From contig NZ_KK037166.1 in assembly GCF_000568255.1 (NCBI RefSeq), forward strand, positions 11,577,626 through 11,614,241: a stretch of 36,616 bases of DNA. Direction: 5' to 3'. Origin of the DNA: Kutzneria sp. 744. Lineage in GTDB: Bacteria > Actinomycetota > Actinomycetes > Mycobacteriales > Pseudonocardiaceae. This document shows positions 22-29,289 of the stretch, piece by piece (the stretch's first letter is position 1; each line of letters opens with the position of its first letter). A program made the translations under genes and the position numbers. Below the pieces are notes generated by a model, which worked only from the letters and a program-made list of their open reading frames with translations, made no database searches and was not told the DNA's origin.

Positions 22-3021
22 TCATCGACGGCCTTTCGGGTGGGTCTGGCTCAGGGCGGCGGCGCGGGCCAGCCGGTGGGAGATCCGCTCGATCTCCGGC
101 GCGATCCCGGACGTGCGAACGCTGTGCAGGTGCAGCAGCGAGGCCAGCACCGAGTCCGGCGCGGGCGTTCCGGCGCGGGCGAGGGCGGCGCGGTAGGCGG
201 CCAGCGCCGTGCGCCGCGCCGCCCACGCGGCGGCGATCTGCTCGCCGCTGGCCAGGCCACGTACCGTCGCGAGATCGTCGCGCGGGTCGGCCAGGTGCAG
301 CGCCTGGTCGTAGACCGCGCGGTCAGGCGCGGGGACCGGGCCGGTGGTGATGTGGTCGATCAGCCAGGCGTTGCCGGTGGTGTAGTCGCCGCTGAACGCG
401 GCGGCGAGGTCGACCAGGCTTGCGGCGGTCAGCGCCCAGACATCGGCGGCATCGGGGCCAGCGGCGAGGTGTGCGCGTTGGGCGAGCGCGGCGGCGGAGT
501 CGGCGGCGAACACCTCCTCGGCGGCGGCCATCACAGTGCCGTGCCCGAAGCGGCCGGTCTCCGGGAGGTAGGTGTCTAGCTGCATCGTCGCGATCAACCC
601 ATGTTGGCGCAGTCGCGCGACCCATGCGCCAAGGTGGACGGCGACCGTGCCGAAGCAGTCGGGCGTGGCGAGCTGGATGCGCAGCCGCAGGTGATTGTCC
701 GGATCGCGGTAGGGCAGGAACCACCACCGCACCGGTTTGTCCAGTGTGGACAGCAGTTCCGGCAGATGGGTGGTGAGCAGGGCGGTGTGGCGGTCGGGGT
801 GGCCGTAAAGCTTGCAGAACAGCCACTTCCCCGCACCGGGAAGGTGTCCGTCGCTGGCGGTGGTGGCGGTGATCGGCGCGGTGCGGACCGGCAGCGGGGG
901 CCAGATGCGGGCCTGGGTGGAGGCGAGCGGGACGACGATTCGTGGGCGTGGCCGTCGATCCAGCCGAACGCGCCGGCACCGGGGGCTTCCTGCACGGTGG
1001 CGTGCCCGTCACGGTCGAGCTGGGCGCGCAGCAGGTGCAGGTGCGCGGACTCGTCCAGATCCAAGCAGGCGCTGGTCGTTGGCGCCGAGGTAGACCATGG
1101 CGGGCACCATCGCCCGGACCCGCCAGTCGGCCACGGCCACCGTCCATTCCGGCCAGGAGACGTGCTTGCCGGGCAGGTCGGCCGCCGTCAGCGTCCAGCG
1201 CGCCGGCGAGAGGACGGTGCGGCGGTAGGTCAGTCGGGGCAGGAACGGCAGCTGCGAGGCGATGCCCCACGCGAACGGCCCCCACATGGCGGTCCTCGCG
1301 GTGGTCAGCTCGCAGGCCAGCCGCAGCAGCGGGTGGGAGAAGTTGGTGAACTCCACCGCGCTGAACACCTCCGGCTCCACCGGCCGCGCCGTCGAGCGCG
1401 ACCACACGGTGAACCGGTGCGCGTCGCCGACGACCACCAGGTCCTGCGGCATCAGCACCGTGTCGGAGCCGAAGCGGTGTTCGGCGATCGAGAGCAGGTC
1501 GGGCAGGACCTGCGGGTGGCGGGCGACGTTCTCGGTCTCGGTGTAGAGCGGCGGGCAGGACACCTGCACCCGCAGCGCGCCGTCGTTGACGGTCGGCAGC
1601 CTGGCGTACGCGCGGGCCATGCGGTCGCGGTCAGCGTCGTCGAGTAGGTCGAGGAAGCGGCCGGCGGTTGTTCCGGCGGCGCGGAACGCGCCGGCCACGA
1701 CCAGCTGGAACTCGCCCCGGTCGAGCGCGTCCCGGCTGGGCGCGTGCACCCGTACCGCCAGCTCGGTGTGCGCCGGCCACTGCGCCTGTCCGAGGGTGTC
1801 CGTCTCAAGCTCGGTGATCGTCGCGTCGTAGAGCACGACCTCGACGTGCCGGTTCACCGCCGCTGTCTGCGCCAGCCGCAGCAGAGCGGTATCCCGGTCG
1901 CTCACCCTCGCGTTGGGGCGTTCCAGCTGGGAATCCCGGTAGCCGGCGGGGTATCCGAGACCGATGTCGGGGTTGACCAGCTCCACCAGCGGCACGGCCG
2001 CGCCGACGCCGTAGCGCTCCAGGAACCGGGCGTGGTAGTCCCGCCAGACCGGCGTGCCGAACGGTTGCGGGGTGAGCCGGGCCAGCACGCTCGCCGCCCG
2101 CGTGACCTCGGTGGCCACGCTGTGGGGCAGCACGACCTGGGCGTCCGCGCGCAGATCAACCCTGTCCGCCGGCCCGGGGCCAGTGTGGTCGCGTAGTCGG
2201 GCGAGCGTCCCGGCCGCAGCCGGGACATCCTCGGCGCGGACGTCGGCCAGGGCGGCCAGGACATGCCGGAGCGGGTCGGTGACCGTCATCGGCGGGCGCA
2301 GGCCGGTGAGCAGGACGCGCTGCTCGACCAGCTGGATCAGCATCGCGGTGATCACCGGGACTGGCGTGTCGGGGAACGCGACGGCGAGCCGGTCGGCGAG
2401 ATCGCCCAGGCGGATCGGCGTCCGCGCCGCGTGTACGACCAGCTCCACGGGCCGGGTGTGGCGGATGGACACCTCGGCCGGATCGGTGCGGGCTGCGGCC
2501 GGGTTGGGGTGCTGGCGCAAGCCGATGACCAGCCGGCCGTCGCGTACCGTCGCGGTGTTGTTCACCACGACCGGCAACCGCTCAGCCAGACCGTGGCAGC
2601 GCTCCAGCTCGCCCACCAGCCCGGACAGCCACACGGCGTCGGCCCGGCCGGTGACGCGGTGGCCATCGCCGATCCGGACTGTGGTGGCTGGTCCGAACTC
2701 GGCGGGCGCGACGCCGGCGAACAGACCGAACGGGGTGGCCCGGCTGGATGACCGCAACCGGTAGCGCAGCAGCGACACCACTGCGCCGCGCACCTGCCGG
2801 GGCCGCTGCTCGCGGCCGGCGCACACCGCGACCACGCGGCGGGCGAGGTCCGGGCTGGCCGCTCGCACCGCGCCGGCGAACGGCTCGTCCGCCCAGGTCC
2901 GGGCCAGCCAGTCACGCCACTGCGGCACGTGATCGCCGCTCAGATCCGGCCACGTGTGCTCGTCCACATCGGACGGCTGGATCGCCAGCCGGAGCAAGGC
3001 CGCGTCGACGACAGTGAACAC
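22..3021 (-). CDS. lanB: LanB-type lanthipeptide dehydratase (with two compensating indels)
   Basis: Full-length class I lanthipeptide dehydratase of about 999 residues. Family knowledge: LanB activates Ser/Thr of the precursor with glutamyl-tRNA and eliminates glutamate to give Dha/Dhb. The N-terminal two thirds is the glutamylation domain, with the family-like stretch RSSSRATPFGLFAG. The last ~300 residues match the SpaB_C elimination domain (WWFLPYRDPDNHLRLR). The frame is broken twice: at about 1064 an extra G turns RLLDLDE into RLLGSG, and at about 945 one base is missing before IVVPLAS. The two changes cancel, so total length stays a multiple of three. I prefer the GTG at 3021 (MFTVVDAALL) because AAGGGGG lies 9 bases upstream; TTG codons at 3030 and 3027 are too close to it. 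Last gene of the lan operon inside the window. It is either a sequencing artefact or a pseudogene; the coding match on all three segments is strong. Confidence 0.85.
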
Positions 3022-3046
3022 CTGCAACAACCCCCTTCACGCGAAA

Positions 3047-3091
3047 GACGGCCTGGTGGACAAGGCGCTCGCCTCTGCCTACCAGGCCGTC
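3047..3091 (-). terminator. Hairpin between precursor and lanB, likely attenuator
   Basis: A perfect 11-bp inverted repeat (gacggcctggt at 3047-3057, accaggccgtc at 3081-3091) encloses a second small stem (aggcg at 3063-3067, cgcct at 3070-3074). On the transcribed minus strand the stem is followed by CTTTCG, a short U tract. It sits between the stop of the precursor gene (3115) and the lanB start (3021). By analogy with other RiPP operons it probably acts as a partial terminator or RNA-stabilising stem, giving much precursor mRNA and little lanB mRNA. The function is inferred; the structure is seen directly. Confidence 0.75.
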
Positions 3092-3114
3092 ATCGGTCAG
3101 CTCGCCGTGGTGTG

Positions 3115-3279
3115 TCAGCCGCAGGTGCTGTTGGAGCAGGCACTCTGGCAGGTCTGGCCGCAGTTGTCGTCGGTGTTGCGCATCAGGTCGGCCACGACCG
3201 GCCCGGAGGCGACGATCGACACGTCGAGATCGAACTCCATGCCCGCCACTGCGGGCGTCTGCGTGTGCTGCAAGGTCAT
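3115..3279 (-). CDS. lanA: FxLD family lanthipeptide precursor
   Basis: A 54-residue precursor peptide. The leader carries the family signature EFDLDVSIV (F16-D17-L18-D19). The C-terminal core, NTDDNCGQTCQSACSNSTCG, has four Cys (C40, C44, C48, C53) and six Ser/Thr (T36, T43, S46, S49, S51, T52), so up to four (methyl)lanthionines are possible. The ribosome site AAAGGAG lies 7 bases before the ATG. It sits between the FxLD-system methyltransferase and lanB on the same strand, the order expected for this RiPP family. The D37-D38-N39 run at the head of the core is a candidate target for the methyltransferase. No clear GG-type cleavage site is visible; cleavage may fall between the FDLD region and N35. 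The family assignment is confident; ring pattern and product activity are unknown. Confidence 0.92.
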   Translation of the reverse strand: MTLQHTQTPAVAGMEFDLDVSIVASGPVVADLMRNTDDNCGQTCQSACSNSTCG

Positions 3280-3338
3280 AGCGAATCTCCTTTGCAGGGT
3301 TGGTGAATCGTGCGGATGGGACTACTTGGCCGCGGCCG

Positions 3339-4583
3339 TCATGACGAGGCCGGCCAGGAGATCAGGACGCGAGTGTGCTTCTTGTCGATCAGGCGGCCCT
3401 CGCCGATCTCGGCGTCCGGGGTGCCGGCCGGGAAGACCTCGATCCGCGCGCCGGGACCGCCCCGGTGCGCGCGGTCCCACTCGCGGATCACCTCCACGTA
3501 CCGGTCAGCGACCGTCTCGGCGTCTGGGCCGTGGCCGTAGACCATGAACTCGAACGACGTGCGCTCCTCCGAGGTCGCCCGCGAGGCCCGGTAGGCGAAG
3601 CTGCCGCCGACCAGGGTGGTCTTGGCGCCCATGCGGGTGGAGCGTTCCACCAGGCCGGACTCAATCCCGGCGGGCGTGGCCACCAGCAGCCCGAAGTCGT
3701 CCAGCGCCGTGGCCAAGAAAAGGTCCAGCTCGTCGAACGGCTCGAACCCGCCGACCTCCACGCCGGAGGGGCGCACGACGCGCGGCGAGGTCAACGCGGC
3801 GCTCAACGCCTCGCCGTCCGCGGTCTGCCCGCCATCCAGCCGCAGCGCGATGTCCTCGCCACGCAGCAGGACCAGGCGCTCGGCGTTGGCCCCGGAGCCC
3901 TGCATCGAGACGAACCCGCACAGCTGGTAGCCCCGGCTGACCAGGTGCCCGTCTTCGCGGACCAGCGCCACGGACCGGGTGAGCCCGCGCATCCGCAGCG
4001 GGACGACGAGCACGCCGTCCTCGGCGAGCTGCTCGGTCCAGGCGGGCGGGATGTCCGCGGCGCCGGCCGTGACGATGATCCGGTCGAACGGCGCGTGCTC
4101 GGGCACACCGCCCTCGGCGTCAACCAGCAGCACCCGGACCTGCGGATACCCGGCCTCAGCGAGGTAGCGCTCGGCGCGGTCGACCACGAACGGGTCAATG
4201 TCGACGGTGGTGACCTCGCCGTCGGGGCCGACCAGTTCCGCGATGAGCGCGGCGTTGTAGCCGCCGGAGCCGATCTCCAGCACCCGCATCCCGGGCTGGA
4301 TGTCGGCTTGCTCCAGCATCATCGCCTGGATGCGTGGCGCGGACACCGAGCTGAGCGCGAGGCCGTTCTCGTCCCGCTTGGTGATCACGACGTCGTCGCG
4401 GTCGTAGACCTTCTCCAGCGGGGCCTCGGGCGCGAACGCCTCACGTGGCACGGTGGCGAAGGCCCGGATCACGGCGTCGGTCCGCAGCTCTCCCTGGGCG
4501 CGCAGCTGCTCGACCATCGTCGCGCGCAGCGCGGCGGCATCCTGCTGAGTAGCCTTGGTGTCGTTGTCTCGTACGGTGTTCAC
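3339..4583 (-). CDS. FxLD-system methyltransferase (PIMT-like)
   Basis: A 414-residue protein. The N-terminal half is a protein-L-isoaspartate O-methyltransferase-like fold: SSVSAP (about 78-83), SAM motif I VLEIGSGGYNAA (101-112) and motif II VDID (127-130). The C-terminal ~190 residues are an extra domain typical of the FxLD-system methyltransferases found beside FxLD precursors. Family knowledge: PIMT homologues in lanthipeptide clusters methylate an Asp side chain in the modified peptide, which cyclises to aspartimide and can hydrolyse to isoaspartate. Here the likely substrate is the TDDN segment of the adjacent precursor. The start is a GTG (MNTVRDND) preceded by GGAAGAG. It lies 60 bases upstream of the precursor gene, on the same transcript. 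The enzyme class is confident; the modified residue is inferred. Confidence 0.88.
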   Translation of the reverse strand: MNTVRDNDTKATQQDAAALRATMVEQLRAQGELRTDAVIRAFATVPREAFAPEAPLEKVYDRDDVVITKRDENGLALSSVSAPRIQAMMLEQADIQPGMRVLEIGSGGYNAALIAELVGPDGEVTTVDIDPFVVDRAERYLAEAGYPQVRVLLVDAEGGVPEHAPFDRIIVTAGAADIPPAWTEQLAEDGVLVVPLRMRGLTRSVALVREDGHLVSRGYQLCGFVSMQGSGANAERLVLLRGEDIALRLDGGQTADGEALSAALTSPRVVRPSGVEVGGFEPFDELDLFLATALDDFGLLVATPAGIESGLVERSTRMGAKTTLVGGSFAYRASRATSEERTSFEFMVYGHGPDAETVADRYVEVIREWDRAHRGGPGARIEVFPAGTPDAEIGEGRLIDKKHTRVLISWPASS

Positions 4584-9254: not shown

Positions 9255-9743
9255 GTGCCGATACAGGTGGCCGTCTGCGGCCCGCGCCACTGCACCGAGC
9301 AGGACGAGGCCAATGCCCTCGAGGTGGGCCGCCTTCTGGCGCAGGCCGGCGCCATCGTGATTTGCGGTGGCGGCATCGGCGTGATGGCCGCAGTGGCCGC
9401 GGGCGCGCGATCTGAAGGCGGACTGGTCATCGGCGTACGGCCGGGTGACTCGTCCGAGGACGCCAGCCCTGACCTGTCCGCCGTGCTCGTGACCAACATG
9501 GGAGAGGCGCGCAACGCGATCATTGTCTGGTCCGGCGACGCCGTGATCGCGGTGGGCTGCTCCTGGGGGACCTTGTCCGAGATCGCACTGGCGAAACGAC
9601 GCGGCGGCGTCCCTGTCATCACGCTGGGCGGGTGGGAGATCCGCAACCACGACGGTACTGAGCTCGCCGATCCGGTGACCACTGCCGCGACCCCGCAGGA
9701 GGCGGTGGATCTCGCTCTGACCTTCGCCAGTGCCGCTCGATGA
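9255..9743 (+). CDS. SLOG/LOG-like Rossmann protein (TIGR00725 type)
   Basis: A 162-residue protein with GTG start (MPIQVAVCGPRHC) and AGGAAGG upstream. The glycine loop CGGGIGVMAAVAAGA (about 37-51) and the later GCSWGTLSEIALAKRRGGVPVI (about 101-122) match the nucleotide-binding loops of the LOG/SLOG superfamily. The classical LOG PGGxGTxxE is here GCSWGTLSE. Relatives include cytokinin-activating LOG phosphoribohydrolases and nucleotide sensors of defence systems. Whether this one is enzyme or sensor cannot be told. Its partnership with an XRE-TPR regulator suggests a ligand-dependent regulatory pair. Confidence 0.75.
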   Translation: MPIQVAVCGPRHCTEQDEANALEVGRLLAQAGAIVICGGGIGVMAAVAAGARSEGGLVIGVRPGDSSEDASPDLSAVLVTNMGEARNAIIVWSGDAVIAVGCSWGTLSEIALAKRRGGVPVITLGGWEIRNHDGTELADPVTTAATPQEAVDLALTFASAAR

Positions 9744-10010: not shown

Positions 10011-10048
10011 CTGGCTAGCGCCCGCCATACTGGGCGGGCGCTAGCCAG
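10011..10048. terminator. Bidirectional terminator, 16-bp perfect stem
   Basis: ctggctagcgcccgcc (10011-10026), loop atactg, then ggcgggcgctagccag (10033-10048). There is no U tract on either side, as is common for actinobacterial terminators. It ends the SLOG operon (plus strand) and overlaps the TAG stop (10041-10043) of the convergent TIGR02391-like gene. Confidence 0.85.
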
Positions 10049-10927
10049 CCGCTGGCGTGCCGTCCTCACGCTGCGCAGCCTCGAGGAGGTCGCAGTCGTC
10101 GAGCCAGCGCGCCAACAGGCTTAGCGCGGCCAGCCGCTCGAGCGCGGCCTGCTCATCAAGGTCGATGTTCGCGTGGGCGGCGCTGTTGCGGATCGTCAAC
10201 TGCACGCCGGGGGCGAAGAACCGCAGGCCGGCGTTCATCGTGCTGACGTCCTGGTCGGCCGGGTCACCCGGCCAGCGCAGCCGCGACTTGCCCGGCTGCG
10301 GCGGTTTCTCGGAGAAGACCTCCTGCCACAGCCCGGTCGCGGGCACGTTGTTGCGCCCGGTGCGGGCCCGCACCACCGCGACCACGGCCTCGCACGCGCC
10401 GGCCACCGCCTCCCGGAAGTGCCCGTCACGCCACAACCGGCCCGCCGCGCCCCACATGACCGGGTGCATCGCTTCGGCACCGATCGCCGGTGGCCGCTCG
10501 GCCTCGGCCCGCACGACCATCCCTTCGAGGCGTCCGAGGGCCTGATCGCAGGCGTCGAGGACGTCAGAGGCTTCCAACAGGGGCTTGGGGCGGGTGATGG
10601 TCTGCCACGCGGTGATCGGGTCGATGGTGCCGACGCCCTGCACGCCGATCGAGATGCCGGTCAGTGGCACTGCGGCGGAAGCGCGGCCGGCCAGCTGGGA
10701 CACTTTCTTCCGTCGTCGTGCGATCTCGTCGGGGTCAGCGTCGTCGCGGGGGAACACCGCCGGGGCGATCCCGCGCGCCACGCCACCCCAGCCGCCGGGC
10801 CTTCGTTGGGTACGTGCAGCTCGAGGAAGTCGACCAGCGCGGCGCGGAACTGCTCGACCGCCGCGGCGACCGCGGCCAGGTACTCGGGGTTCTTGCTCAG
10901 CTGCATCTGGCAAGCCTGCCACGTCAC
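10041..10927 (-). pseudogene. TIGR02391 (Ymh-like) protein, one frameshift
   Basis: The C-terminal ~120 residues match the TIGR02391/Ymh domain: LWRDGHFREAVAGACEAVVAVVR, LWQEVFSE, and GLRFFAPGVQLTIRNSAAHANIDLDEQAALERLAALSLLARWLD. This domain occurs in prophages and abortive-infection-like loci. The N-terminal part begins at GTG 10927 (GGGGGAA upstream) and reads QACQMQLSKNPEYLAAVAAAVEQF... LELHVPNEGP. It slips near 10760-10800 into the frame ARGIAPAVFPRDDADPDEIARRRKK. One missing base explains it; the repaired product would be about 295 residues. The stop lies inside the terminator stem. Confidence 0.7.
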
Positions 10928-11021
10928 CGCGCGTTCCCCCGACGTGTTTGTCGCCCCCTGCAGGCACCGGGCGGTGGGGCAAGCCGTTCCCCGGCAACCC
11001 GCGGTCGGGAGGGTCGTGCGT

Positions 11022-11141
11022 GTGTTGCTGCGTTGGATCCTCATCGTCGGCCGTGCCATCACCGAGGCTGTGCGCCCCGCTGACGCCGCCCGTGAGATCG
11101 TCTCCCTCGTCCACCGACACCCTCGACACCCCGGAAGGTGA
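11022..11141 (+). CDS. Possible 39-residue small protein
   Basis: The GTG at 11022 has GGAGG 9 bases upstream and encodes VLLRWILIVGRAITEAVR..., a short hydrophobic/amphipathic helix, ending 9 bases before the GNAT start. The ribosome site and spacing are good, but there is no family match, and the region is antisense to nothing recognised. It may be a small membrane peptide or just a leader reading frame for the GNAT gene. Confidence 0.35.
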   Translation: MLLRWILIVGRAITEAVRPADAAREIVSLVHRHPRHPGR

Positions 11142-11150
11142 GGAAACCTC

Positions 11151-11627
11151 GTGATCATCAAGCCGCTCCACCAGGACATGATCGGCGAGGTCATCGACCT
11201 CCTCAGCCAAGGCTCGCCCTACATCTGGCCGAGAACCGCCTCCGACTATTGGCTGTACTCCGCCCTGTTCTCCTCAACCTGCCCCGTCGCACCACACGAG
11301 GACACGATCACCGGCGTTGTCATCGCCATCCGCAGCCAGGACCACCCCGACGACATCTACATCCAAGACGTCATGACCCACGCCCACCACCGGCGCCAAG
11401 GCATCGCCAAGGCGCTGATCAACAGCGTGTGTGCTCAGGGCGAGGCCTGGGGGTGTGGCCGTTTGTACCTCACCTCCGAACCCGAGAACACCAGCGCGCA
11501 CCACGCCTGGGGCGCGCTGGGCTTCGTCAACGTCCCGGGGGACCACCGCGTCAACGGCGTCGAGGTGATCACCGACTTCAAAGGGCCGGGCAAGACCCGC
11601 GCGGTGTACGAGCTGCACCTCCGCTAG
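11151..11627 (+). CDS. GNAT-family N-acetyltransferase
   Basis: A 158-residue protein starting at GTG (MIIKPLHQDM) after GGTGAGG. The acetyl-CoA motif A is IQDVMTHAHHRRQGIAKALINSV (R-R-Q-G-I-A-K-A), followed by the GNAT beta5-alpha4 segment RLYLTSEPENTSAHHAWGALGFV. The substrate is unknown. It is convergent with the large Avs-like gene, whose stop lies 32 bases beyond. Confidence 0.85.
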   Translation: MIIKPLHQDMIGEVIDLLSQGSPYIWPRTASDYWLYSALFSSTCPVAPHEDTITGVVIAIRSQDHPDDIYIQDVMTHAHHRRQGIAKALINSVCAQGEAWGCGRLYLTSEPENTSAHHAWGALGFVNVPGDHRVNGVEVITDFKGPGKTRAVYELHLR

Positions 11628-11658: not shown

Positions 11659-14600
11659 TCATTCGGAGCGATGCGTGAATGATCTCGTCGATAGGGTGCC
11701 GTCGTGGCGGCGAATATGTGCGCTGGTGCGGGTGAGAGTCCCCGGGTACGTCGCACACCCCAGGGGATCTTTCATTATCGCCTTTCGCTGTACGACAAAC
11801 TGGACCAGCGCAAGTCGATTTCTCTTAAGCGCCACCGACAGGGTGGCGCTATCAATCAGTAAAGCCGGGGGTAGAGGTGTGCCGGAAGAAGGGTCTGCGG
11901 CGACAATTCGGTTGGTTTCACTGCGGGCGATGCCGTCGATGCAAATAAGGTCCGTCAGGCCGAGTGCGGAAATCGATCTACTGGACAGTAGTGCAACGCT
12001 CGTGGAAGCGATAAGCGAGTGGTCGACACCGGCGGTGGAAGTCGCCGAATCGGGCTCAACCTTCCAGTGATAGTAGTCGACGAGTGGTATTCTCGGAATG
12101 GGGAGGTTTGCGGGTCGCTCATGTGGCCGCAAGGGCGAGCAGTCGCACTTGTTGTAATTCTGCTGCGCATGGTTAGTGCATTCCGGACTGGCGGGCCATT
12201 CGGTGAGAAACATGTTCGCAGTGAGAAGGTTCGCTGAGATGGGTACGGTGCCGAGTCCGCTGAGCGGTGTTTCTATGAGTGTTACGGCATCCGCCTCGTT
12301 AATGAGTACTGAGGACAAGGAGACTGTGAGCTGTCGGTGCGGGGAGGCCTCCTGTTGCCCGGCGCGGGTTATTGGGTGCCCGTCGGCTGACCAGTCAGTT
12401 GAATGACGTGCATGTAGTACGACATAGTTTCTGTCATTTGTTGCCGGTGGCGCTTGCGTGCGATTGTGGGTCCAGGTGTCCAGATCGGCGGTGACTGTCA
12501 AGAGAGGTGTGGGGTCAATGAGGTCATCGTCCTGGTTGACCCATTCTGCTTGTTCGTGTGTCCACGCAACCGCGAGTTCTGCTGTACTCGGCAATGCGCG
12601 TCGGGTTGAGTGTATCGTGGGAGTAACCGGAAACCACCATGGTCCCTGCGGCCAACGAAGTTCATGCTCTGGGAGATCCCGCCCTAGCCACGTTCGGCTG
12701 GTCATACGATCCGTCTCGGTGGTGAAAGTGGCTCTCGCGGCGGATGTGTGCGATGCCCTCACGATGGTGGCGAGCATCGGCCCGGCCAGGAGGTGATCGG
12801 GATAGTCGGGGTATTCGTGGCAGATCTCGGCTGGTATGTAGGGGAACCGCGGATGCATCTGCACTGTAAGCCAGTCGAGACAATGGGTCGGATCGAAGTC
12901 ACGCGCACCGATTTGCCATGCGCCGCGGTAGGTGCGTTCCTGGCCTGGGTCATCCTGGCGTCGCAGTCGATGAGTGTCGGATAGACGTGCGGTGGTTTCA
13001 TGCCACGCGATCCACTGGTATTTCATCCCAAACCGTTCCGGCTTGCCAGGTGACCGAGCGCTGTTGTGCTCCTGGGCCAGTGCGGCGTCGATCTGTCCGA
13101 AGTGTTCGGGGCGCCACCCCAAGTCGAGCACTCGGGTAAACACCCAGGGAAGCAGTGCAGAGGTATCGACGGGAGTGACGTAGCCGTTATCGGGTTCAGA
13201 GAGTCGTTGTGCTGCCCAAGGGGTTGATGTGCGGTTGACGAATTTCATCACATGGTGACCGAAGTGCCCGTTGGTCAGAGACGAGATGATGGTGGCGTAG
13301 CTGTTAGCTGTGGGAGGCAGCGTGTGTGCTGGATCTGTGTTCGTGCCCAGGGAAGCTTCCCTGCGTGCTGCTGCGAAGCGGTGGTGTAGGTCTCCGAGGT
13401 CGTTGCGGCCAAGGAAGGCCGACCAGGCAGTGTCGTAGGGAGGGCAGGATTTGCCCAACATGGACTGGTCGAGGGTGCCGTGCGCGTGAAGATGTTGAGC
13501 GGCGCAGGCCAGGTAGTCCCGGGCAAGTACGTGGGTGGGAATTCCGAGGCGGTGCACGAAGGTGCGCAGAGTATCGGCATAGCCGGCCAACCGGATCGGA
13601 TCGCGCGTTCGTGTGGTGGCGCCGCAGAGTACCGCCAGTGCACGTTCGACGATGTAGGGGTCATCGACGTTGGACACCAGGGTGACAAGGTCGGTGGCCA
13701 CACGAGGGTCGTGATCGCTCAAAGCCACGAGGGTCCGCGTCGTGTCGTCGCGGAGGCATCGGTCAGGACTTGCCAGAGCCCACATCAGAGCGGCGACGGC
13801 CTCAGTGCTGGTTGCCGTCGGCCGCTGCGGGCTACTGCCGGACGCGGCTGGTCGGGCAGCCCAGTCGCGCAGCCAATTCAGGAGAGGCTGGTACGGACTG
13901 TAGTCCTTGCGCCACCGGCCCGCGCTCAGCCCCGCTGTGAAACAGCGGTCTCGCTCCGGCATGGGCAACGGGGCCAGGATCTCGTGCAACCACAGCGGGC
14001 CGAGCGGCACCGCCGGGTGCATTGCCAAGGTCAGTGCGACGGCGATGGTGTCACGTCGGGACTCGGAAGGGGGCCACGTCGGGGCTTCCGACGGTTCGAC
14101 AATCGCGCGGCGCAGCCGGTCTCGCGCCGTCGCGGTGACGCTCCGGGGGGCCCGCAGCAGCAGGCTGTCGAGCCAGGTGTCGTGCTCCCAGTCAGTGTCA
14201 GGGAGTTCTGTGAGTTGACCGTCTTCGGCGAGCGCGCAGAAGAGAGTTGCGAGTTCGACGCCGACGCGTTCGGGGAGCAGCACTGCGAGGGCTGCCAGCA
14301 CGCCGCGCGCCGTGGGGCTGTTGGCTAACACGCGGATCGACTCTGACGTCCGCAGGCGTTCGAGCGTCCAGGTCGCTTCCTCGTCTGCGTTCGTGCCAGC
14401 GGCAGGTGTGAGGGAGGCCAGTTCTTCGTCGAGGATTGCTGTCGCTATCAGGTGATCGCCAAGGCGCTCGAAGGCAAATCGCACCACCTGCTGCGTGGCG
14501 CCGCGTTCGTCGGCCAGGGCGTCCTCTGCGAGCACACCCTCGTGGATCAGCGCGAAGAGCAGGGACGTTGAATAGCCGGACGAGACGTGTAGAGGTGTCA

Positions 14601-16416
14601 GCAGTTCGGTTGCTTCCGCGCGGGACAGCCAGTTTCGGCCGCGGGCTCGGAGTGACCGCGCGAGCTGGCTGCAGGCACGCTGGGCGAGTTGCGCGTGGTG
14701 GTCGGCGTCGATCGTGGTCGACACGTGCTGGTTTGCGGCGTCCAATGCGGCCTCGATTACCGCGTTGAATCCCGGCGCGGGGGAGTCGAGCAGGTGTGGT
14801 GCTGAGCCGGCGGCCGTGCAGTACAGCCTCAGAAAAAGTGGATTGGTGAACTCTGGTAGCAGCCCCAGCGGCGCAGTAGGCAGCGGTAGTCGGTAGTGGG
14901 CGAAGTAGGTCGCGATTGCGTTGAATTCGACGTTGATGAACCCGTCGTGGGCGACGCGGAGCAGGATTTTGCTGTCGAGGTGGTCGCTGACAATGCTGCT
15001 TGCGAATGTGTCGCGAACACTGAGAATGACGCCAATCCAGGGATACTGGCGCGCGGTGGCCAAGAACCCTGCAAGGGTGTTGCGCCACAGAACAGGCCCG
15101 TTGTTCTCGTTGAGTGCATCGATTATCAGCAACGCTCGCTGACCGCATGCTTCCGCGCGTGCGGACAGCGACTGAAGGAATTCTTCCGTAGAACCGGTGA
15201 AATCGAGTGCGGAAAGAATCTGTTGCCATGGATGATGCGGGCCGAGTTGTTGCCCGAGCACTAGTATGCTGGGCTGTCCGCGATCCAGGGCGATTCGAGT
15301 CATGTCACACAAGAGATGCGTCTTGCCGCTACCCGCTTTTCCGGTGATCAACAGGGCTGGTGACTCGTAGGCTTTAGCGTGAACCGTCAACAGGTGCTCG
15401 GCGCGTTCGGACTGCGACAGAATGCCTCCCGCTATATCCCCACCTGCTAATTGTTTTTCCTGAGATAGATGTGCCGCTGGGGTATCTCTCGGTGTCTCCT
15501 GGCACAGCCAGAGGAGGTGGCCTCCACCATTCTTTACGTCGTCCCATGCTTGCGCCCAGTCGTCGAACGGCGGAACATCGACGGCCTCGAGGCGTATTCT
15601 GGCGTCGACGTTATGTCCGGCCGTCAGTGAGCTCGTCAGGTCCGAATACAGTGGTTGTGGCAGCTCTTGGCATGCGGATTCGAGTTCGCTAATGACGCCT
15701 TCGGGAATGCCGCGACGGCGAAGGCGTGTTGGCGCAGTGACAACATCGTCACGCAAGAGCTGAAGTTCCCTGAGCAAGCGCGGAGAACGAGAAAACGCTT
15801 CCAACGTTTCGCCGATCGGTACAGCAATGTGTAACTGCGGGTTGTAGCGGGGGCCGGCATTCGCGCGCGCCTGTGCCCATCGGTTAGCTAGCCAATCGTC
15901 GGAAATAAAACTGCGATTGAACCACCACTGGTATCGGCCGACATGTTCGGCTCGTGTCAGCTCTGTGAGCAGTTCCGACTTGCCGAAAAACTCAAACTCC
16001 ACCGACATTCCGCGTCTTTTTGCAAGGGTGGTCCAGCGTGTAACGTGCTCATTCCATTCATCCATGAACCACTGTTCACCCTGGCGTCGAGGGTCGGCGC
16101 GGTCGACGGGAAGTGCAATCTCAAGTTGTATCAGCCGTGGATGTGTTGACAGTGCGCGCTCGATACTCGCGGTGAGTTCGCGCCATTGTCCGGGTGTAGG
16201 CTTGCCGAGGAAGAATTTTGCCTGAAGCGCGCGTTCGTTGCCGGCAGTGTCGGAGGCGTACCCCTCGATGCCTCCATCGGGTGTTCCAAGTCTCACGAAC
16301 CGATCGCCGCGGCCGTCAGCTCGTGCCCGGGCGATCTGGCAGCACAACTCCTCAAATCCGCCAGCCTGACTGCCACCCCATGGCCGCAATGAACTGAAGT
16401 CGACATCAACACGCAC
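11659..16416 (-). CDS. Avs-like STAND NTPase with N-terminal nuclease domain
   Basis: A single uninterrupted 1585-residue frame. Residues ~20-150 form a restriction-endonuclease-like domain: F21-E22-E23, D47-GGIE51 and Q65-A-K67, the E...D/E...QxK pattern of Cap4/Mrr-type PD-(D/E)XK nucleases. The STAND NTPase core has Walker A LLITGKAGSGKTHLL (~355-367), Walker B RALLIIDALNEN (~430-441) and the sensor-like VILSVRDTF. About 1000 C-terminal residues are helical, with HEAT-like pairs near 865-940, the usual place of the target sensor. Nuclease + STAND + long sensor is the architecture of Avs (AVAST) antiphage proteins, which tetramerise on binding a phage terminase or portal and then degrade DNA. 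Which Avs class, and which phage protein, cannot be told here. The GTG start has no ribosome site; see the promoter entry. Confidence 0.8.
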   Translation of the reverse strand: MRVDVDFSSLRPWGGSQAGGFEELCCQIARARADGRGDRFVRLGTPDGGIEGYASDTAGNERALQAKFFLGKPTPGQWRELTASIERALSTHPRLIQLEIALPVDRADPRRQGEQWFMDEWNEHVTRWTTLAKRRGMSVEFEFFGKSELLTELTRAEHVGRYQWWFNRSFISDDWLANRWAQARANAGPRYNPQLHIAVPIGETLEAFSRSPRLLRELQLLRDDVVTAPTRLRRRGIPEGVISELESACQELPQPLYSDLTSSLTAGHNVDARIRLEAVDVPPFDDWAQAWDDVKNGGGHLLWLCQETPRDTPAAHLSQEKQLAGGDIAGGILSQSERAEHLLTVHAKAYESPALLITGKAGSGKTHLLCDMTRIALDRGQPSILVLGQQLGPHHPWQQILSALDFTGSTEEFLQSLSARAEACGQRALLIIDALNENNGPVLWRNTLAGFLATARQYPWIGVILSVRDTFASSIVSDHLDSKILLRVAHDGFINVEFNAIATYFAHYRLPLPTAPLGLLPEFTNPLFLRLYCTAAGSAPHLLDSPAPGFNAVIEAALDAANQHVSTTIDADHHAQLAQRACSQLARSLRARGRNWLSRAEATELLTPLHVSSGYSTSLLFALIHEGVLAEDALADERGATQQVVRFAFERLGDHLIATAILDEELASLTPAAGTNADEEATWTLERLRTSESIRVLANSPTARGVLAALAVLLPERVGVELATLFCALAEDGQLTELPDTDWEHDTWLDSLLLRAPRSVTATARDRLRRAIVEPSEAPTWPPSESRRDTIAVALTLAMHPAVPLGPLWLHEILAPLPMPERDRCFTAGLSAGRWRKDYSPYQPLLNWLRDWAARPAASGSSPQRPTATSTEAVAALMWALASPDRCLRDDTTRTLVALSDHDPRVATDLVTLVSNVDDPYIVERALAVLCGATTRTRDPIRLAGYADTLRTFVHRLGIPTHVLARDYLACAAQHLHAHGTLDQSMLGKSCPPYDTAWSAFLGRNDLGDLHHRFAAARREASLGTNTDPAHTLPPTANSYATIISSLTNGHFGHHVMKFVNRTSTPWAAQRLSEPDNGYVTPVDTSALLPWVFTRVLDLGWRPEHFGQIDAALAQEHNSARSPGKPERFGMKYQWIAWHETTARLSDTHRLRRQDDPGQERTYRGAWQIGARDFDPTHCLDWLTVQMHPRFPYIPAEICHEYPDYPDHLLAGPMLATIVRASHTSAARATFTTETDRMTSRTWLGRDLPEHELRWPQGPWWFPVTPTIHSTRRALPSTAELAVAWTHEQAEWVNQDDDLIDPTPLLTVTADLDTWTHNRTQAPPATNDRNYVVLHARHSTDWSADGHPITRAGQQEASPHRQLTVSLSSVLINEADAVTLIETPLSGLGTVPISANLLTANMFLTEWPASPECTNHAQQNYNKCDCSPLRPHERPANLPIPRIPLVDYYHWKVEPDSATSTAGVDHSLIASTSVALLSSRSISALGLTDLICIDGIARSETNRIVAADPSSGTPLPPALLIDSATLSVALKRNRLALVQFVVQRKAIMKDPLGCATYPGTLTRTSAHIRRHDGTLSTRSFTHRSE

Positions 16417-16422
16417 TGAAGT

Positions 16423-16428
16423 AGCATA
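16423..16428 (-). promoter_or_regulatory. -10 element giving a probable leaderless Avs-like mRNA
   Basis: On the minus strand TATGCT ends 6 bases before the GTG start of the Avs-like gene, with no Shine-Dalgarno between. In actinobacteria a -10 box at this distance usually means transcription starts at the start codon itself. No good -35 hexamer is visible. The spacing is observed; leaderless expression is inferred. Confidence 0.45.
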
Positions 16429-16731
16429 GTGTCCAGGACCTATCCTGAGCCGCGGGCAGGCACCTGGTTTCCGGCCGCCCAGTCGCGACGAGAGCGGACT
16501 GTTGTCGTGGTGGTCGTGGTCGTGGAGGGGCGCCGCCGAGTGCGGTCTCTATCGTCAGGAGGCCAGCAATGCGGTGCCGGTCGCGCCGCAACACGAAGCC
16601 AGCGAGGAGCGCGTGTCGATGGCGATGGTCCGTTCAAGGGCAGCGGGCCGTCCGGCTTGCTGGGCGACGTTACCCGATCGGCGTAATGGCGAGCGGGTGC
16701 GTTCGGTGCGATATCCGACGGGATGGGTCGA
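16429..16731. other. Intergenic stretch with no clear gene
   Basis: It holds a short gtggtc-like low-complexity run (about 16501-16525) and GC-rich shadow frames only. No structured RNA or complete gene was recognised. Confidence 0.35.
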
Positions 16732-16955
16732 ATGAGTGGAGGGGAGCCCGAACGCCGTCTCGATGTCGACAACGTCGTCAGCGGGACCGTTGTCGGCAAT
16801 GTCGTGCAGGTCGGGTCTGCGGGCAGTGTTCACGTGGGCCGGCTGGATCAGCGTGGAGCCGCTACCGGGAGCAGGTCGAGGCGATCGCTCCCGACCGGCT
16901 CGTCGGCCGGCAGGACGAACTTGCACTTCTGACAGCGTTTTGCCTGGCACCGACG
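16732..16955 (+). pseudogene. N-terminal fragment of a second STAND/NTPase-type protein
   Basis: MSGGEPERRLDVDNVVSG followed by TVVGNVVQVGSAGSVHVG is the glycine/valine-rich N-terminal motif found in many actinobacterial STAND and WD40-linked ATPases. After a one-base slip near 16850 it continues as RYREQVEAIAPDRLVGRQDELALLTAFCLAP, the segment that normally precedes the P-loop domain. The P-loop part is missing: after FCLAPTS the sequence changes to unrelated coding fragments. A truncated gene left by rearrangement is the best reading. Confidence 0.5.
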
Positions 16956-16968
16956 TCATCACGATCGC

Positions 16969-17235
16969 ATGGCGAACCTGCTGCGCATCGCGTGGCGGTA
17001 CCGGGACATCGCCGGGTTCGACGCCGAGGGATGGGCGACGTACGCCGACGACGCCCCTGAGCCGGGTGGCCTGTTGGCCGTAGACGATCGGCTGGGGAGG
17101 ATCTGGTCGAAGCCCGAGGGCGAGTCGGGCGCGGAGTGGGCGCTGAACACGAACCCGTCGCAGCGGCGAGCCTGGACGCAGTTGCCGGCCGAGTACGGGC
17201 CGGTGAAGCCACGGGCATGCAGCGGCCAGCCCTGA
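16969..17235 (+). pseudogene. Unknown 88-residue frame, probably a gene fragment
   Basis: An open frame MANLLRIAWRYRDIAGFDAEGW ... GGLLAVDDRLGRIWSKPEGESGAEWALNTNPSQRRAWTQLPAEYGPVKP. The composition (W, acidic/basic mix) looks like real protein, but the ATG has no ribosome site and the frame is abutted by other fragments. The family is not recognised. Confidence 0.4.
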
Positions 17236-17316
17236 GATGCACGAGGCACTGTAGATGCTGCCCGCGCGCCCCCAGGCGGCTGCGCCGGCACTTCGAACGC
17301 GTCACCTTGACGGCGG

Positions 17317-17332
17317 GCATTGGGATTCCCCT
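17317..17332. repeat. Intergenic 16-mer GCATTGGGATTCCCCT, copy 1
   Basis: An identical 16-mer (18 with two flanking g) recurs at 18149-18164. Both copies have TTCGAA 17-20 bases to the left. Both are outside convincing genes and flank the secreted-protein gene. Confidence 0.6.
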
Positions 17333-17402
17333 GGACCTGGCCATCGCCACGAGGTAGCCCAGACCGCGCCGTGCTGGTCACTACCGGCTGCAGCCGGTAG
17401 TG

Positions 17403-19915: not shown

Positions 19916-20719
19916 ATGTCCATGCAGGAGGTGATCACGGCTCTCCACACCACGTTGGCGCACCTCGAACGCGCACGTGAACGCCTCGCCGAGGGCCGGC
20001 GTGAGTGGGCCGGTGCCGCCCAGCTCTACGTGGACACCCTGCACGACTCGACGCAAGCAGAACCCGTCGCGGTGCGGCAGATCGCCAAAGATCTGGACCA
20101 GACGATGTTTCCGCGGCTCTACGTCATCTTGTTCAACGCTCAGGCGGCCATCAAGAAGATGCTGCGTCTGTACGGCGCCGAACCACCGCCCCGCACCCCA
20201 CCCGCGCCACCGCGCCAGCCTCCGCCCGGCGGACGACCAGCGCCCGGACAGGCACCGCCGAGCGGGCCGGCGGCGGTCACTAACCGGCACGGCGATCGCT
20301 ACCCATCCGAGGCCGCCGGACTGGTGGAGAATCTGCCGCCTCGTGTCGTCTCGGGCGCGGGAGATCGGACCGTCGGCGTGCCGCGTGTGGGCGGGCGGGC
20401 CGCTGCGCCGATCGAGTCCGGCTACGACCCCGAGCTGAGCGAGGCGATCTCCGCCCGGCTCGCCGAACTGGGTGTCCGGGATACGTACCTGCGGTTTCAC
20501 GCCGAGCTGAAGGTCGCTCAGATGATGGTCCAAACCGGACACCTGGAGGTGGAGCTGGCGATCAACAACGTGCCCTGTGGGATCGAGACGCAGCGCAACT
20601 GGGCCGATACCTGCGACAAGGTCCTGGACCGGTACCTGCCGGCGGGCTCCCGATTGACCGTGTACGGCACGACCCGGGACAATCGTCCCTGGCGCAGAAT
20701 CTACGGATCCAGGAGGTGA
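19916..20719 (+). CDS. DddA/SCP1.201-like deaminase toxin
   Basis: A 267-residue polymorphic toxin. Residues 1-90 form a helical N-terminal domain (MSMQEVITALHTTLAHLERARE... MFPRLYVILFNAQAAIKKML) resembling the WXG100/DUF6244-like trafficking modules of actinobacterial toxins. A Pro-rich linker follows (~90-165). The C-terminal deaminase has H195-A-E197 (RFHAELKVAQMM), NNVPCG with C221, a second Cys C233 (DTCDKVL), and the typical end LPAGSRLTVYG. HAE plus PC...C is the zinc site of the cytidine deaminase fold. The 11-residue gap between the Cys is longer than the classic PCxxC, so substrate (DNA, RNA or nucleotide) is open. The next gene is Imm1-like and overlaps it, which supports a toxin role. 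Confidence 0.82.
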   Translation: MSMQEVITALHTTLAHLERARERLAEGRREWAGAAQLYVDTLHDSTQAEPVAVRQIAKDLDQTMFPRLYVILFNAQAAIKKMLRLYGAEPPPRTPPAPPRQPPPGGRPAPGQAPPSGPAAVTNRHGDRYPSEAAGLVENLPPRVVSGAGDRTVGVPRVGGRAAAPIESGYDPELSEAISARLAELGVRDTYLRFHAELKVAQMMVQTGHLEVELAINNVPCGIETQRNWADTCDKVLDRYLPAGSRLTVYGTTRDNRPWRRIYGSRR

Positions 20720-21135
20720 GCAGCCTGACCACGATGGCCCTGCTCGACCTGGTCGACGACGGCGGTGCCGACATCAGCGACGTCGACGACAGCCAGACCG
20801 CCCTCGAACTGTTGCGCGCGGCCGCCGCGGCGGGCCCCAACCAGACCTGGACCCTGTTCTCCGGCGCGGTCAGCGAGCGGGAGACCCCGAGCCTGGGCGT
20901 GGGGTTGAGCGAGGACGGCACTCACGGATGGCTGTCGTGGTGGGACGGCGCGCACAGCTTCACGCCGGCCTCGACCTCCCGCACCGGCCGCTGGGTGGAC
21001 TACTGGTGCGCAGGCCAGCACATGCAGGTCGACGAAGGCCGGCAACTGCCCACCGACACGGTGCTGAACGCGGTCCAGGAGTACCTGACCACCCACCAGC
21101 GCCCGACCAGCGTCGCGTGGAAGCGCGAGGACTAG
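20716..21135 (+). CDS. Imm1-family immunity protein
   Basis: About 133-139 residues. Imm1-like features are TWTLFSGAVSERETPSLGVGLSEDG..GWLSWWDG, then WVDYWCAGQHMQVDEGRQLPTDTVLNAVQEYLTTHQRPTSVAWKRED. The ending (alpha-helix then RPTSVAW) is typical. Imm1 proteins neutralise deaminase and other polymorphic toxins by binding them. The GTG at 20716 overlaps the toxin stop (GTGA), but AGGAGG is directly on it; CTG 20725 or ATG 20734 may be used. Coupling to the toxin guarantees co-expression. Its TAG shares CTAG with the stop of the convergent gene. Confidence 0.82.
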   Translation: MSSLTTMALLDLVDDGGADISDVDDSQTALELLRAAAAAGPNQTWTLFSGAVSERETPSLGVGLSEDGTHGWLSWWDGAHSFTPASTSRTGRWVDYWCAGQHMQVDEGRQLPTDTVLNAVQEYLTTHQRPTSVAWKRED

Positions 21136-23103: not shown

Positions 23104-23775
23104 CTACGGCGGGCGGATGTAGCTGCGGAGGTCCAGGGCGGTCTCGATGAATCCCGTGCCGCCGCCGGCCTTATCCCAGGGCTTCCGCGCGACCAGCAAA
23201 CTGGAGGTGGCCTGGTGTAGGTGATCTCTGGTTGTCAGCTCGTCGTCGCTTGCCGGTGTGAGTCCGGTCCGGGTAGTTGCCAGGAAGCCCGGTAGCAGAC
23301 TGGCGGCTCGGCGGGGAAACCTGTCGGGTCGAAGCCCAGTGTCAAATGCCCTTCAAGGGGGAGCAACTGAGCGGTCCGTAGCATCACGCGAAGCCTGCGG
23401 CGTCGTTAGAGGTCCCGCCCGTGGGTGGGGTGCAGGGAGTGCCGAGCCGCCGAAAACACGGTGAAGGCCATGGAAGACGCTGAAGACCTGGAAGTGCAGG
23501 CGTCGAAGGACTCCCCGGCGTATGGGGCTCGGAACGTTCAGACAGTGGCGGCGGGAACTGGTGAGACCCTCCCCGGCCCGGCAACCTGCGGACAGGTGTT
23601 GCCGGAGCGCGGCGCTCTATAACCGATGACCTCGGGAAGTGAGCTGCCAGCTGGAAGGGAGTCGGAGGCGGCAGTAGTACCGCTTGAGCCGACCGGACAA
23701 CATAACCGGCGGTGAGGGAAGGGCCGCTACTTCGTCGACGCGTCTGTTCGTCAAGGAAGGGCTCGGTGAGTGCCG

Positions 23776-25149
23776 ATGTCGGCTAGTCCCACCGCTGCGG
23801 GACGTTCTCCCGCGGATCCGGTTCGTGCCTTGCAACATGCGCTGTACCGGACGGCCAAGGCCGATCCCGGACGACGGTTCCATGCGCTGCGGGACAAGGT
23901 TTTCCGCAGAGACGTCCTGTGGCGCGCATGGGTCGCGGTGCACCGTAACGGCGGTGCGCCGGGCATCGACCACACCACCCTGGCCGCCGTGCAGGAGTAC
24001 GGGGTGACCCGGCTGTTGGACGAGGTGGCCGTTGAGTTGCGGGAGGGCCGGTACCGGCCGTTGCCGACGCGTCGGGTGTTGATCCCGAAGCCGGGCAACA
24101 AGGCCGAGTTGCGGCCGTTGTCGATTCCCGCTGTTCGAGACCGTATCGTGCAGTCAGCTTGCAAGATCGTGCTCGAGCCGATCTTCGAGGCCGACATGCT
24201 GCCGTGTTCGTTCGGATTCCGACCGAAGCGCAGCCCGCACGATGCCTTGCAGGTCCTCGTGGATGAGGCGTGGCGGGGCAGACGGTGGGTGGTTGAGACG
24301 GATATCGCCAACTGCTTTTCGGCGATTCCGCACGAGAAGTTGATGCAGGCGGTCGAGGAACGCGTCTGCGACCAGGCCGTGCTCAAGCTGCTGCGCGCGA
24401 TGCTGCGCTCGGGGGTGATGAGCGACGGGGTGGTGCGGCGTGAGGTGACCGGGACCCCGCAAGGTGGCCCGATCAGTCCCTTGCTCTGCAACGTGTACCT
24501 GCACCGGCTCGACCGGGCATGGGACGTTCGCGAGCATGGGGTGCTGGTCAGGTTCGCCGACGATGCCGTGGTGATGTGCCACTCTCGGCGGCAGGTGGAG
24601 GCCGCGCTGGCGCGGCTGACGGAGTTGCTGTCCGAACTGGGCTTGGAGCCGAAGGCGGCCAAGACCAGGATCACGCACCTGACCGAGGATGGCCCAGGCG
24701 TGGATTTCCTGGGGTTTCACCATCGGTGGGTGCGTGCCGAGGGACGCACCGGCGGTAAGGGGGTTGCCTTTCTCGCTCGCTGGCCTGCGGACAAGGCGAT
24801 GCAGCGTGCCCGTGACCGGATCCGTGAGTTGACGGACCGGCGCAGGATGTTGCTGCGTGTTGAGGTGATCGTGGAGGATGTCAATCGCTTCCTCCGTGGC
24901 TGGGCCGGGTATTTCCGTTATGGGAACTCGGCTTTGCGCTTCGAGAAGATCAGGAGCTATGCGGTGATGCGGCTGGCGGGTTTCGTGGCCAAGAAGCATC
25001 GCCGCACCCGAGCGTTCGGTCGCTGGGTGATCGCCTTCGCGTCCGACAACCAGCTCGGCCTGATCCGCCTTGATGGAACCGTTGTTGCACCCAGGCCGTT
25101 TCGGGCCTGGCGGGTGGTGTCGAATGCCGGCGGTGAACGGCGTCGGTAA
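23776..25149 (+). CDS. ltrA: Group II intron reverse transcriptase/maturase
   Basis: 457 residues from ATG 23776 (MSASPTAAG; a GTG lies two codons upstream). RT motifs are in order: NGGAPGIDH, RPLSIPAVRDRIVQ, CSFGFRPKRSPHDAL, WVVETDIANCFSAIPHEKL, GTPQGGPISPLLCNVYLH, and the active site VRFADDAVVM (~residue 260, FADD in place of YADD). Then LGLEPKAAKTRITH and FLGFHHRWV. Domain X (maturase) is FLRGWAGYFRYGNSALRFEKI. The protein ends soon after, with no HNH domain, so target cleavage by a DNA endonuclease is not expected. It binds its own intron RNA to splice and reverse-splice it. Confidence 0.93.
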   Translation: MSASPTAAGRSPADPVRALQHALYRTAKADPGRRFHALRDKVFRRDVLWRAWVAVHRNGGAPGIDHTTLAAVQEYGVTRLLDEVAVELREGRYRPLPTRRVLIPKPGNKAELRPLSIPAVRDRIVQSACKIVLEPIFEADMLPCSFGFRPKRSPHDALQVLVDEAWRGRRWVVETDIANCFSAIPHEKLMQAVEERVCDQAVLKLLRAMLRSGVMSDGVVRREVTGTPQGGPISPLLCNVYLHRLDRAWDVREHGVLVRFADDAVVMCHSRRQVEAALARLTELLSELGLEPKAAKTRITHLTEDGPGVDFLGFHHRWVRAEGRTGGKGVAFLARWPADKAMQRARDRIRELTDRRRMLLRVEVIVEDVNRFLRGWAGYFRYGNSALRFEKIRSYAVMRLAGFVAKKHRRTRAFGRWVIAFASDNQLGLIRLDGTVVAPRPFRAWRVVSNAGGERRR

Positions 25150-26716: not shown

Positions 26717-26744
26717 GCTGGAGGTGGAGTGCTGGAGGTGGAGT
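26717..26744 (+). repeat. Tandem 14-bp duplication covering the ribosome site
   Basis: GCTGGAGGTGGAGT is present twice head to tail (26717-26730, 26731-26744). Each copy contains GGAGG. The second copy places GGAGG 7 bases before GTG 26746. Confidence 0.7.
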
Positions 26745-26745
26745 G

Positions 26746-27452
26746 GTGGCGGTGCCCAAGGCTCTGGCGGGCTTGGCCGCAATCCCCGGGGTGCGGACAG
26801 CGGCGCAGCTGCACCCCGAGACGACAGCATCCACTGAGTCACTGATGGTCTTGCCCGCATTGACCCGCCTGTTCCCGGCGGGTGGGTTACGGCGTGGGTG
26901 CACGATCTCCGTCGCCGGGTCGACCTCGTTGGTCTTGGCGCTGCTGGCGGCCGCCACCACGTCTGGTTCCTGGGCGGCGGTGACCGGTCTGCCCGAGCTC
27001 GGGTTCGCCGCGGCGGCCGAACTCGGGGTCGACCTGGACCGGCTCGCGCTCGTGCCTCGCCCCGCCGCTGACCTGGTGACCGTGCTCTCTGCACTGGTCG
27101 ACGGGTTCGATCTCGTCGTGGTCGGCCCGGTCATCACGCGCGGCATGCAGCCGCAGGTCGCGCGGCGGATGTCCGGACGGGTCCGCAGCCGCGGCGGTGT
27201 GGTGATCACGGTCGGCGCTTGGCCGGGCGCGGACCTGCAGTTGCGGGTCTCGGGACGGCGCTGGCGCGGTGTCACCGCTGACGGTTACGGGTATCTGCGG
27301 TCCTGCGAGGTGGTCGCGACCAGCCGTGGCCGCGGTGGTGCGGCCCGCCCGGTGTCGGTCTCGCTGCAGCTGCCGGGGCCTGATGGTGTCCTGGCCGTGG
27401 CTGAGTCAGTCGGCGCCCGGGTCGGTGGGGGCCATGTCGAGGTGCTGGGTGA
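26746..27452 (+). CDS. imuA': ImuA'-like mutasome protein (RecA-related)
   Basis: About 235 residues. The start is GTG 26746 (MAVPKALAGLAAIPGVRT), 7 bases after GGAGG. It resembles actinobacterial ImuA': LFPAGGLRRGCTISVAGSTSLVLALLAAAT, FAAAAELGVDLDRLALVPRP, LVDGFDLVVVGP and VVITVGAWPGADLQLRV. The Walker A position (VAGSTSLVL) is degenerate, normal for this family. It links RecA with ImuB in the damage-induced mutasome. A stop fused to the imuB start (GTGA, 27449-27452) would be the natural end. As written, the frame reads through to 27729, so one base is probably missing near the 3' end. Confidence 0.78.
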
Positions 27453-29075: not shown

Positions 29076-29224
29076 CCGGGACGACCGCTCACAGGCGCAG
29101 TGAATCACGCCATCCGAAGGGCTCCGGTGCCGCACGGAGGCGTGCTGGGTCGTTGACCAGCGGTTACGGGCGTCGGGCCGGGTTGACAGGAGCGGTTTCC
29201 TCCCTCAGGATCAGCACTGTCGAT

Positions 29225-29238
29225 CGTACTGGTGTTCG
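29225..29238. promoter_or_regulatory. LexA/SOS-like box upstream of dnaE2
   Basis: CGTACTGGTGTTCG contains GTAC-N4-GTTC, one base off GAAC-N4-GTTC. It is 52 bases before the dnaE2 start, and TATAAG (29241-29246), a possible -10, follows at once. It gives dnaE2 its own damage-inducible promoter. Confidence 0.65.
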
Positions 29239-29289
29239 AATATAAGTCGCTGGCTTCCCCACAGCGCGCCTGGTGTGGTGGGAGCTGGA

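Follow-up and report, generated by a model that had tools for sequence, protein, structure and literature searches.

Avs proteins are the closest described relatives of the gene analyzed here. According to published summaries, Avs1 to Avs4 carry nuclease effectors that cut both phage and host DNA when a phage packaging protein is sensed (PMC12931631). The large terminase is the reported trigger of Avs1 to Avs3 and the portal that of Avs4, and an Avs2 from Klebsiella also appeared to bind Ksap1, a second phage protein; the characterised Avs2 proteins named in that account come from E. coli and Klebsiella (PMC12724215).

The stretch of DNA that we analyzed (the window, 36,616 nt) covers positions 11577626-11614241 of the single-contig, 11.65 Mb genome of Kutzneria sp. 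744. In the ORF listing, a single unbroken minus-strand frame of 1585 codons fills 11659-16416; the contig ends about 52 kb away. The frame aligns with relatives over its length, which indicates that it is a real gene. The large 1585-residue protein of the original prediction is thus confirmed as an intact frame; its strand, minus, had not been stated. The features discussed below are the following:

11659..16416, minus strand: avs2-like gene, 1585 codons plus stop, GTG start at 16416, matched by PADLOC Avs2 models and by the solved Avs2 9o4e
16423..16428, minus strand: -10-like sequence TATGCT (TANNNT), 6 nt before the GTG
15907..16416, minus strand: predicted PD-(D/E)XK-type nuclease effector, residues 1-170 (E22, D47, E51, Q65xK67), from motif conservation and a weak profile match to Avs4 8dgf
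15382..15906, minus strand: poorly conserved helical linker, residues 171-345, from the AlphaFold model and the alignment
14347..15381, minus strand: STAND P-loop NTPase and the helical region that follows, residues 346-690, with Walker A at 359-367 and Walker B with D433
12967..14346, minus strand: helical-repeat part of the sensor, residues 691-1150, from the AlphaFold model and the Foldseek match of the whole C-terminal model to 8dgc
12652..12870, minus strand: insertion, residues 1183-1255, pLDDT below 50 throughout
11662..12651, minus strand: C-terminal mixed alpha/beta part of the sensor, residues 1256-1585, from the AlphaFold model and the 9o4e profile match

The PADLOC search revealed that six Avs2 models match the protein. 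The best of them scored 862.7 bits (E 1.6e-259; best stretch, protein residues 2-1075), and the best non-Avs2 model reached only E 0.0013, so that Avs2 models match strongly and above other defence families. The PDB sequence search found 9o4e_A ("AVAST type 2 anti-phage system protein Avs2"; E 3e-85, residues 170-1002 and 1090-1180), and no other distinct PDB sequence reached E 1. When a profile built from the sensor half was searched, it matched this chain with 889.4 bits over chain residues 628-1482 of 1484, and a Rhodothermus plasmid gene annotated avs2 aligned with residues 3 to 1180 at 29.6% identity. The score against the NCBIfam Avs2 equivalog NF041813 was 559.8 bits, below the cut-off of 1000 bits. 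Six relatives were tested against the same cut-off: five passed (L058, L078, L015, L039, and L020) and L005 failed with 710.5 bits. Since the NCBI naming score was missed, we call the protein a divergent member; judged from its sequence, it is an intact Avs2-type STAND protein, with a putative role against phage, and it lies outside NCBI's equivalog.

It had been proposed that the protein has the Avs layout of nuclease, STAND module, and sensor. The PADLOC and 9o4e matches, together with the Foldseek matches and the conserved residues described below, support this layout and sharpen it to the Avs2 type. In the comparison with Avs families the best profiles were those of Avs2, and not those of non-defence NACHT/STAND proteins. 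Large actinobacterial chromosomes encode many STAND proteins, and Pfam found weak generic AAA/NACHT matches alone in the whole protein, all below the cut-offs; both points would fit a STAND/NACHT protein with a role outside defence, such as signalling or developmental regulation. However, no regulator-type model ranked above Avs2 in the three libraries searched, and the lengthwise kinship to Avs2 and the conserved nuclease active site rule against a non-defence NACHT protein, which we rejected as highly improbable.

When the genome collection was scanned by pattern and tblastn, 288 stretches came up, 252 of which are relatives of the avs2-like protein. The best 80 of the 252 share 25-33% identity in their best segment and come from many bacterial phyla and from archaea. 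Six of 100 genomes related to that of the window carry a match, as do 3 of 148 genomes of the class (own genome included in both counts), a patchy distribution of the kind expected for a defence gene. Matches also occurred in 72 of 72,556 plasmid records, and distant partial relatives in one viral contig and two phage records.

The alignment of 75 rows contains the avs2-like protein and 74 relatives. It omits eight of the 80 genome-contig loci, which are short, broken, or cut by a contig end (L054, L056, L062, L066, L076, L083, L088, and L094), as well as the low-scoring L002, L006, L007, and L095 and the partial L003 and L008-L014. L091 and L044 were kept although they start at or near a contig end, and no alignment includes L115 or L116. 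Of the 74 relatives, 65 and 68 were used for the models, and a tree of the N-terminal part was built from 28 of the 75 rows.

Six actinobacterial relatives (L049, L065, L080, L074, L004, and L005) formed a clade supported at 100/100. The avs2-like protein joined this clade in the 75-row tree (SH-aLRT 82), but fell outside it at a non-starred fork (94/83) in the N-terminal tree, where a common clade was not rejected (AU p 0.229). It has the longest end branch of the 75-row tree (1.59), which makes its place unsure.

The PD-(D/E)XK nuclease of the original prediction (D47, E51, Q65xK67) is supported by the alignment: D47, E51, and Q65 are each kept in 74 of the 75 rows, the remaining row being a gap, and K67 is kept in 73. 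A nuclease profile built from 24 members matched the N-terminus of Avs4 (8dgf) weakly, with E 0.0038 and with the catalytic positions aligned. Pfam gave no match at E up to 0.01 in the nuclease domain of the 24 members; support for the nuclease call therefore comes from motif conservation, the structure model, and the weak Avs4 match. A profile search matched 9o4e from its residue 164 on and did not reach residues 1-163, and the nuclease-only profile search did not return 9o4e at E up to 10. Because a match to 9o4e residues 1-163 is missing, the effector of the solved Avs2 may be of another kind than the one found here.

The complete STAND P-loop ATPase that had been predicted is likewise supported. 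Walker A reads GKAGSGKTH (359-367) and Walker B reads IIDALNE; K365 of the first and D433 of the second are present in 75 of 75 rows. The protein has, then, intact Walker A and B motifs, an N-terminal effector with an intact active site, and a large C-terminal sensor related to one that binds a phage protein, as Avs proteins of the STAND class do. AlphaFold gave a confident model for residues 1-700 (mean pLDDT 88.8, pTM 0.89). In Foldseek, 53 matches to this model reached E 0.001, including many general AAA+ proteins: the portal-bound Avs4 8dgf held ranks 1-2, archaeal Cdc6 came next, and NLRP7, NRC4, NLRC4 and, lower down, NOD2 were also found. The matches to Avs3 and Avs4 have low TM-scores (0.25-0.35, normalised by query length).

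The ORF list opens each frame at the first ATG, GTG, or TTG past a stop, and hence there is none upstream in the frame of GTG 16416. The N-terminal motif conserved in the relatives begins at about residue 3 of the avs2-like protein, which makes this GTG the most plausible start codon. The -10 box that had been predicted 6 bases from the GTG is there (TATGCT, 16428..16423), and by eye no Shine-Dalgarno-like sequence lies between the two. The TANNNT sequence stands about 6 nt before a purine, the G of GTG, as expected of a leaderless actinobacterial mRNA. On the minus strand of the window, 2 of 1005 ATG or GTG triplets have TANNNT at exactly 6 nt and 7 of 1005 have it at spacings of 5-8, this site included in both counts; on the other strand, 2 of 1246 have it at the same 6-nt spacing. 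A sigma-70 scan of 16350-16800 found a sole -35/-10 pair, on the strand opposite to the gene. By eye, TANNNT is absent at the 6-nt spacing from the likely starts of the six relatives of the actinobacterial clade, and those of L049 and L065 have purine-rich Shine-Dalgarno-like stretches instead; these genes thus do not share leaderlessness.

Leaderless mRNAs are reported to make up 17% of the primary transcripts of Streptomyces lividans, where the -10 TAnnnT lies on average 6.3 nt away from the start of transcription (PMC8079986), and over 20% of actinobacterial genes are given as predicted leaderless (PMC3160421). With these published frequencies and the geometry of the -10 sequence, a leaderless avs2-like mRNA is plausible and would be unremarkable in actinobacteria. 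Of the proposed constitutive leaderless expression, the leaderless part fits the spacing of TATGCT and the published geometry, whereas the constitutive part found no support.

The third-position G+C of the gene is 0.67, compared with 0.80-0.95 in the 14 listed ORFs of the window with a Pfam hit, which suggests that the gene was acquired from elsewhere. In the empty-site search within the genus, the flanking DNA on the right and on the left was not conserved as a block in seven genomes (own included), and for this reason no insertion border can be drawn. The low third-position G+C and the longest end branch are also what a decaying foreign avs2 gene that has lost its function would show. Against this stand 1585 codons without a stop, the catalytic and Walker residues that are all kept, and the confident fold of the N-terminal half; we regard decay as very doubtful.

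Further defence and conflict genes surround the avs2-like gene. A second, more distant Avs2-like gene (L002; L112:5037-9047) occurs about 60 kb away on the same chromosome arm, at about 11525000-11529050, with a PADLOC Avs2 score of 361.5 bits. It belongs with L006 and L007 to a group whose N-terminal motif is different (NQPGVEF...CKW/CRW), and an ORF beside it weakly matches prokaryotic viperin (E 1.2e-14). A type III-B CRISPR locus runs from the right edge of the window (34616-36520, continued in L113), with matches to Cas10/Cmr2 and then Cmr4, Cmr6, Cmr1, and Cas6; it also encodes a reverse transcriptase-Cas1 fusion, a CARF-RelE-like protein, and a membrane protein (PADLOC Mem_01 model). 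At 19916-21135, a gene with a DddA-like DNA deaminase toxin domain adjoins a gene with an Imm1 immunity domain. The SLOG cluster 4 protein at 9255-9743, which has a weak PADLOC PsyrA match (E 2.4e-7), and the Hypoth_Ymh protein at 10041-11210, near the avs2-like gene, are possible further defence genes.

Other elements of the window include N- and C-terminal parts of a lanthipeptide dehydratase with a PCMT-type methyltransferase (22-4583) and a group II intron (23250-25149), in which Rfam group-II-D1D4-4 lies at 23250-23386 and a reverse transcriptase/maturase at 23770-25149. At 26743-32610, two ORFs without a Pfam hit precede one for a DNA polymerase III alpha-type protein, a gene order that we take to resemble ImuA-ImuB-DnaE2 mutasome operons. 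Upstream of the avs2-like gene, across almost 1 kb (16440-17380), only a single ORF (88 aa) passes the codon-composition filter. An 18-nt exact repeat occurs at 17315 and 18147; the search for repeats and RNA families found none tied to the avs2-like gene.

The AlphaFold model of residues 640-1585 has a mean pLDDT of 79.6 and is good overall, the main exception being the insertion 1183-1255. This insertion is about 70 residues long, and alignment occupancy among the 74 relatives is 0.0 at residues 1201-1240. A HEAT-like sensor of about 1000 residues had been predicted. A helical repeat is indeed present, but it extends over about 460 residues (691-1150), and the rest consists of the low-confidence insertion and a mixed alpha/beta part (about 1275-1585). 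Foldseek gave two matches to the C-terminal model at E up to 0.001, both of them chains of the terminase-bound Avs3 structure 8dgc (E 1.9e-5). Comparison of the C-terminus with terminase- and portal-binding Avs structures therefore yields a sole significant match, to the terminase-bound one.

Identity to the other 74 rows was compared part by part. By median identity, the avs2-like protein is the 12th lowest of 75 in the nuclease, the 8th in the linker, and the 15th in the STAND module, and it is the lowest of all in both parts of the sensor: 0.272 against a median of rows of 0.352 in the helical part, and 0.189 against 0.258 in the C-terminal part. When the best identity to any row is taken instead, it is the 5th lowest in the nuclease, the 11th in the linker, the 7th in the STAND module, and again the lowest in both sensor parts; this best identity is lowered by the absence of a close relative from the set. 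An alignment led by the avs2-like protein was used to gather the relatives, and this should understate its divergence rather than exaggerate it. Of 63 near-invariant sensor columns it deviates at 14, more than any other row, and of 67 such columns in the N-terminal half at 5; the median of rows is 2 in each case. In these comparisons, the divergence of the protein is greatest in the sensor and less extreme in the nuclease and the ATPase.

Since the sensor half is the most divergent of the 75, the trigger may differ from the large terminase subunit (TerL). The same machine could have a sensor tuned to another phage protein, such as the portal, an unknown protein like Ksap1, or another structural protein, and a redirected Avs2-type sensor carrying the insertion of about 70 residues could recognise an actinophage protein other than, or besides, terminase. 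The low identity of residues 691-1150 and 1256-1585 relative to the nuclease and STAND module, the 14 sensor departures, the insertion that the 74 aligned relatives lack, and the second phage protein that a published Avs2 appeared to bind (PMC12724215) all point in this direction. On the other hand, the sensor still aligns lengthwise with the Avs2 family, its best fold match is to a terminase-bound Avs3, and the absence of a close relative explains part of the low best identity. L004, L065, L005, and L080 also depart much (8-11 of 62-63 columns; L049, of the same clade, departs from only 5), which would fit adaptation to actinophage terminases, and non-actinobacterial rows do so too (L046, 12; L075, 9; L043, 8). 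On balance we consider a redirected sensor unlikely.

An actinophage terminase is a simpler guess for the trigger than the new phage protein that had been proposed, because Avs1 to Avs3 are reported to sense the large terminase. The search of the window's genome for terminase family PF03354, the single family sought, gave no match; the control was positive in 3 of 14 genomes. We think it likely that the protein is a divergent Avs2-type machine that works alone by sensing a packaging protein, oligomerising, and cutting DNA. In this mechanism, the C-terminal half would bind a phage packaging protein made in infection, most likely TerL, and the NTPase module would then bind ATP and oligomerise. 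Oligomerisation would bring together the N-terminal PD-(D/E)XK domains, which would cut double-stranded DNA of phage and host alike, and the infected cell would die before phage release. The protein probably acts without a partner, and by analogy with characterised Avs proteins it would protect against phage.

The kind of protein is already known (Avs2), and what is unusual is the distance of its sensor half from its relatives. An actinobacterial Avs2 with a sensor that has diverged beyond its effector would be a useful test of how a receptor family tracks very different phages, and of whether terminase recognition holds across phyla; it is also a concrete candidate for a trigger screen.

Compared with the known systems, the portal-bound Avs4 (8dgf) is the top fold match of the N-terminal half and shares the aligned nuclease motifs, but its sensor has no sequence match to the avs2-like sensor at E up to 0.1. 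The terminase-bound Avs3 (8dgc) is the sole significant fold match of the sensor half, although PDB searches gave no sequence match to it and its target chains have 2004 and 2028 residues. The Avs2-type genes of Arthrobacter (L049), Dietzia (L065), Microbacterium (L080), and Enteractinococcus (L074) have the same layout and nuclease motifs; the avs2-like protein is not firmly inside or outside their clade. It differs from Avs2 (9o4e, PADLOC Avs2, NF041813) in its score below the NCBI naming cut-off, in the insertion 1183-1255, and in a nuclease whose family profile does not match the N-terminus of 9o4e, but it is of similar size to the 9o4e chain (1484 residues), and its STAND module and sensor align with Avs2 lengthwise.
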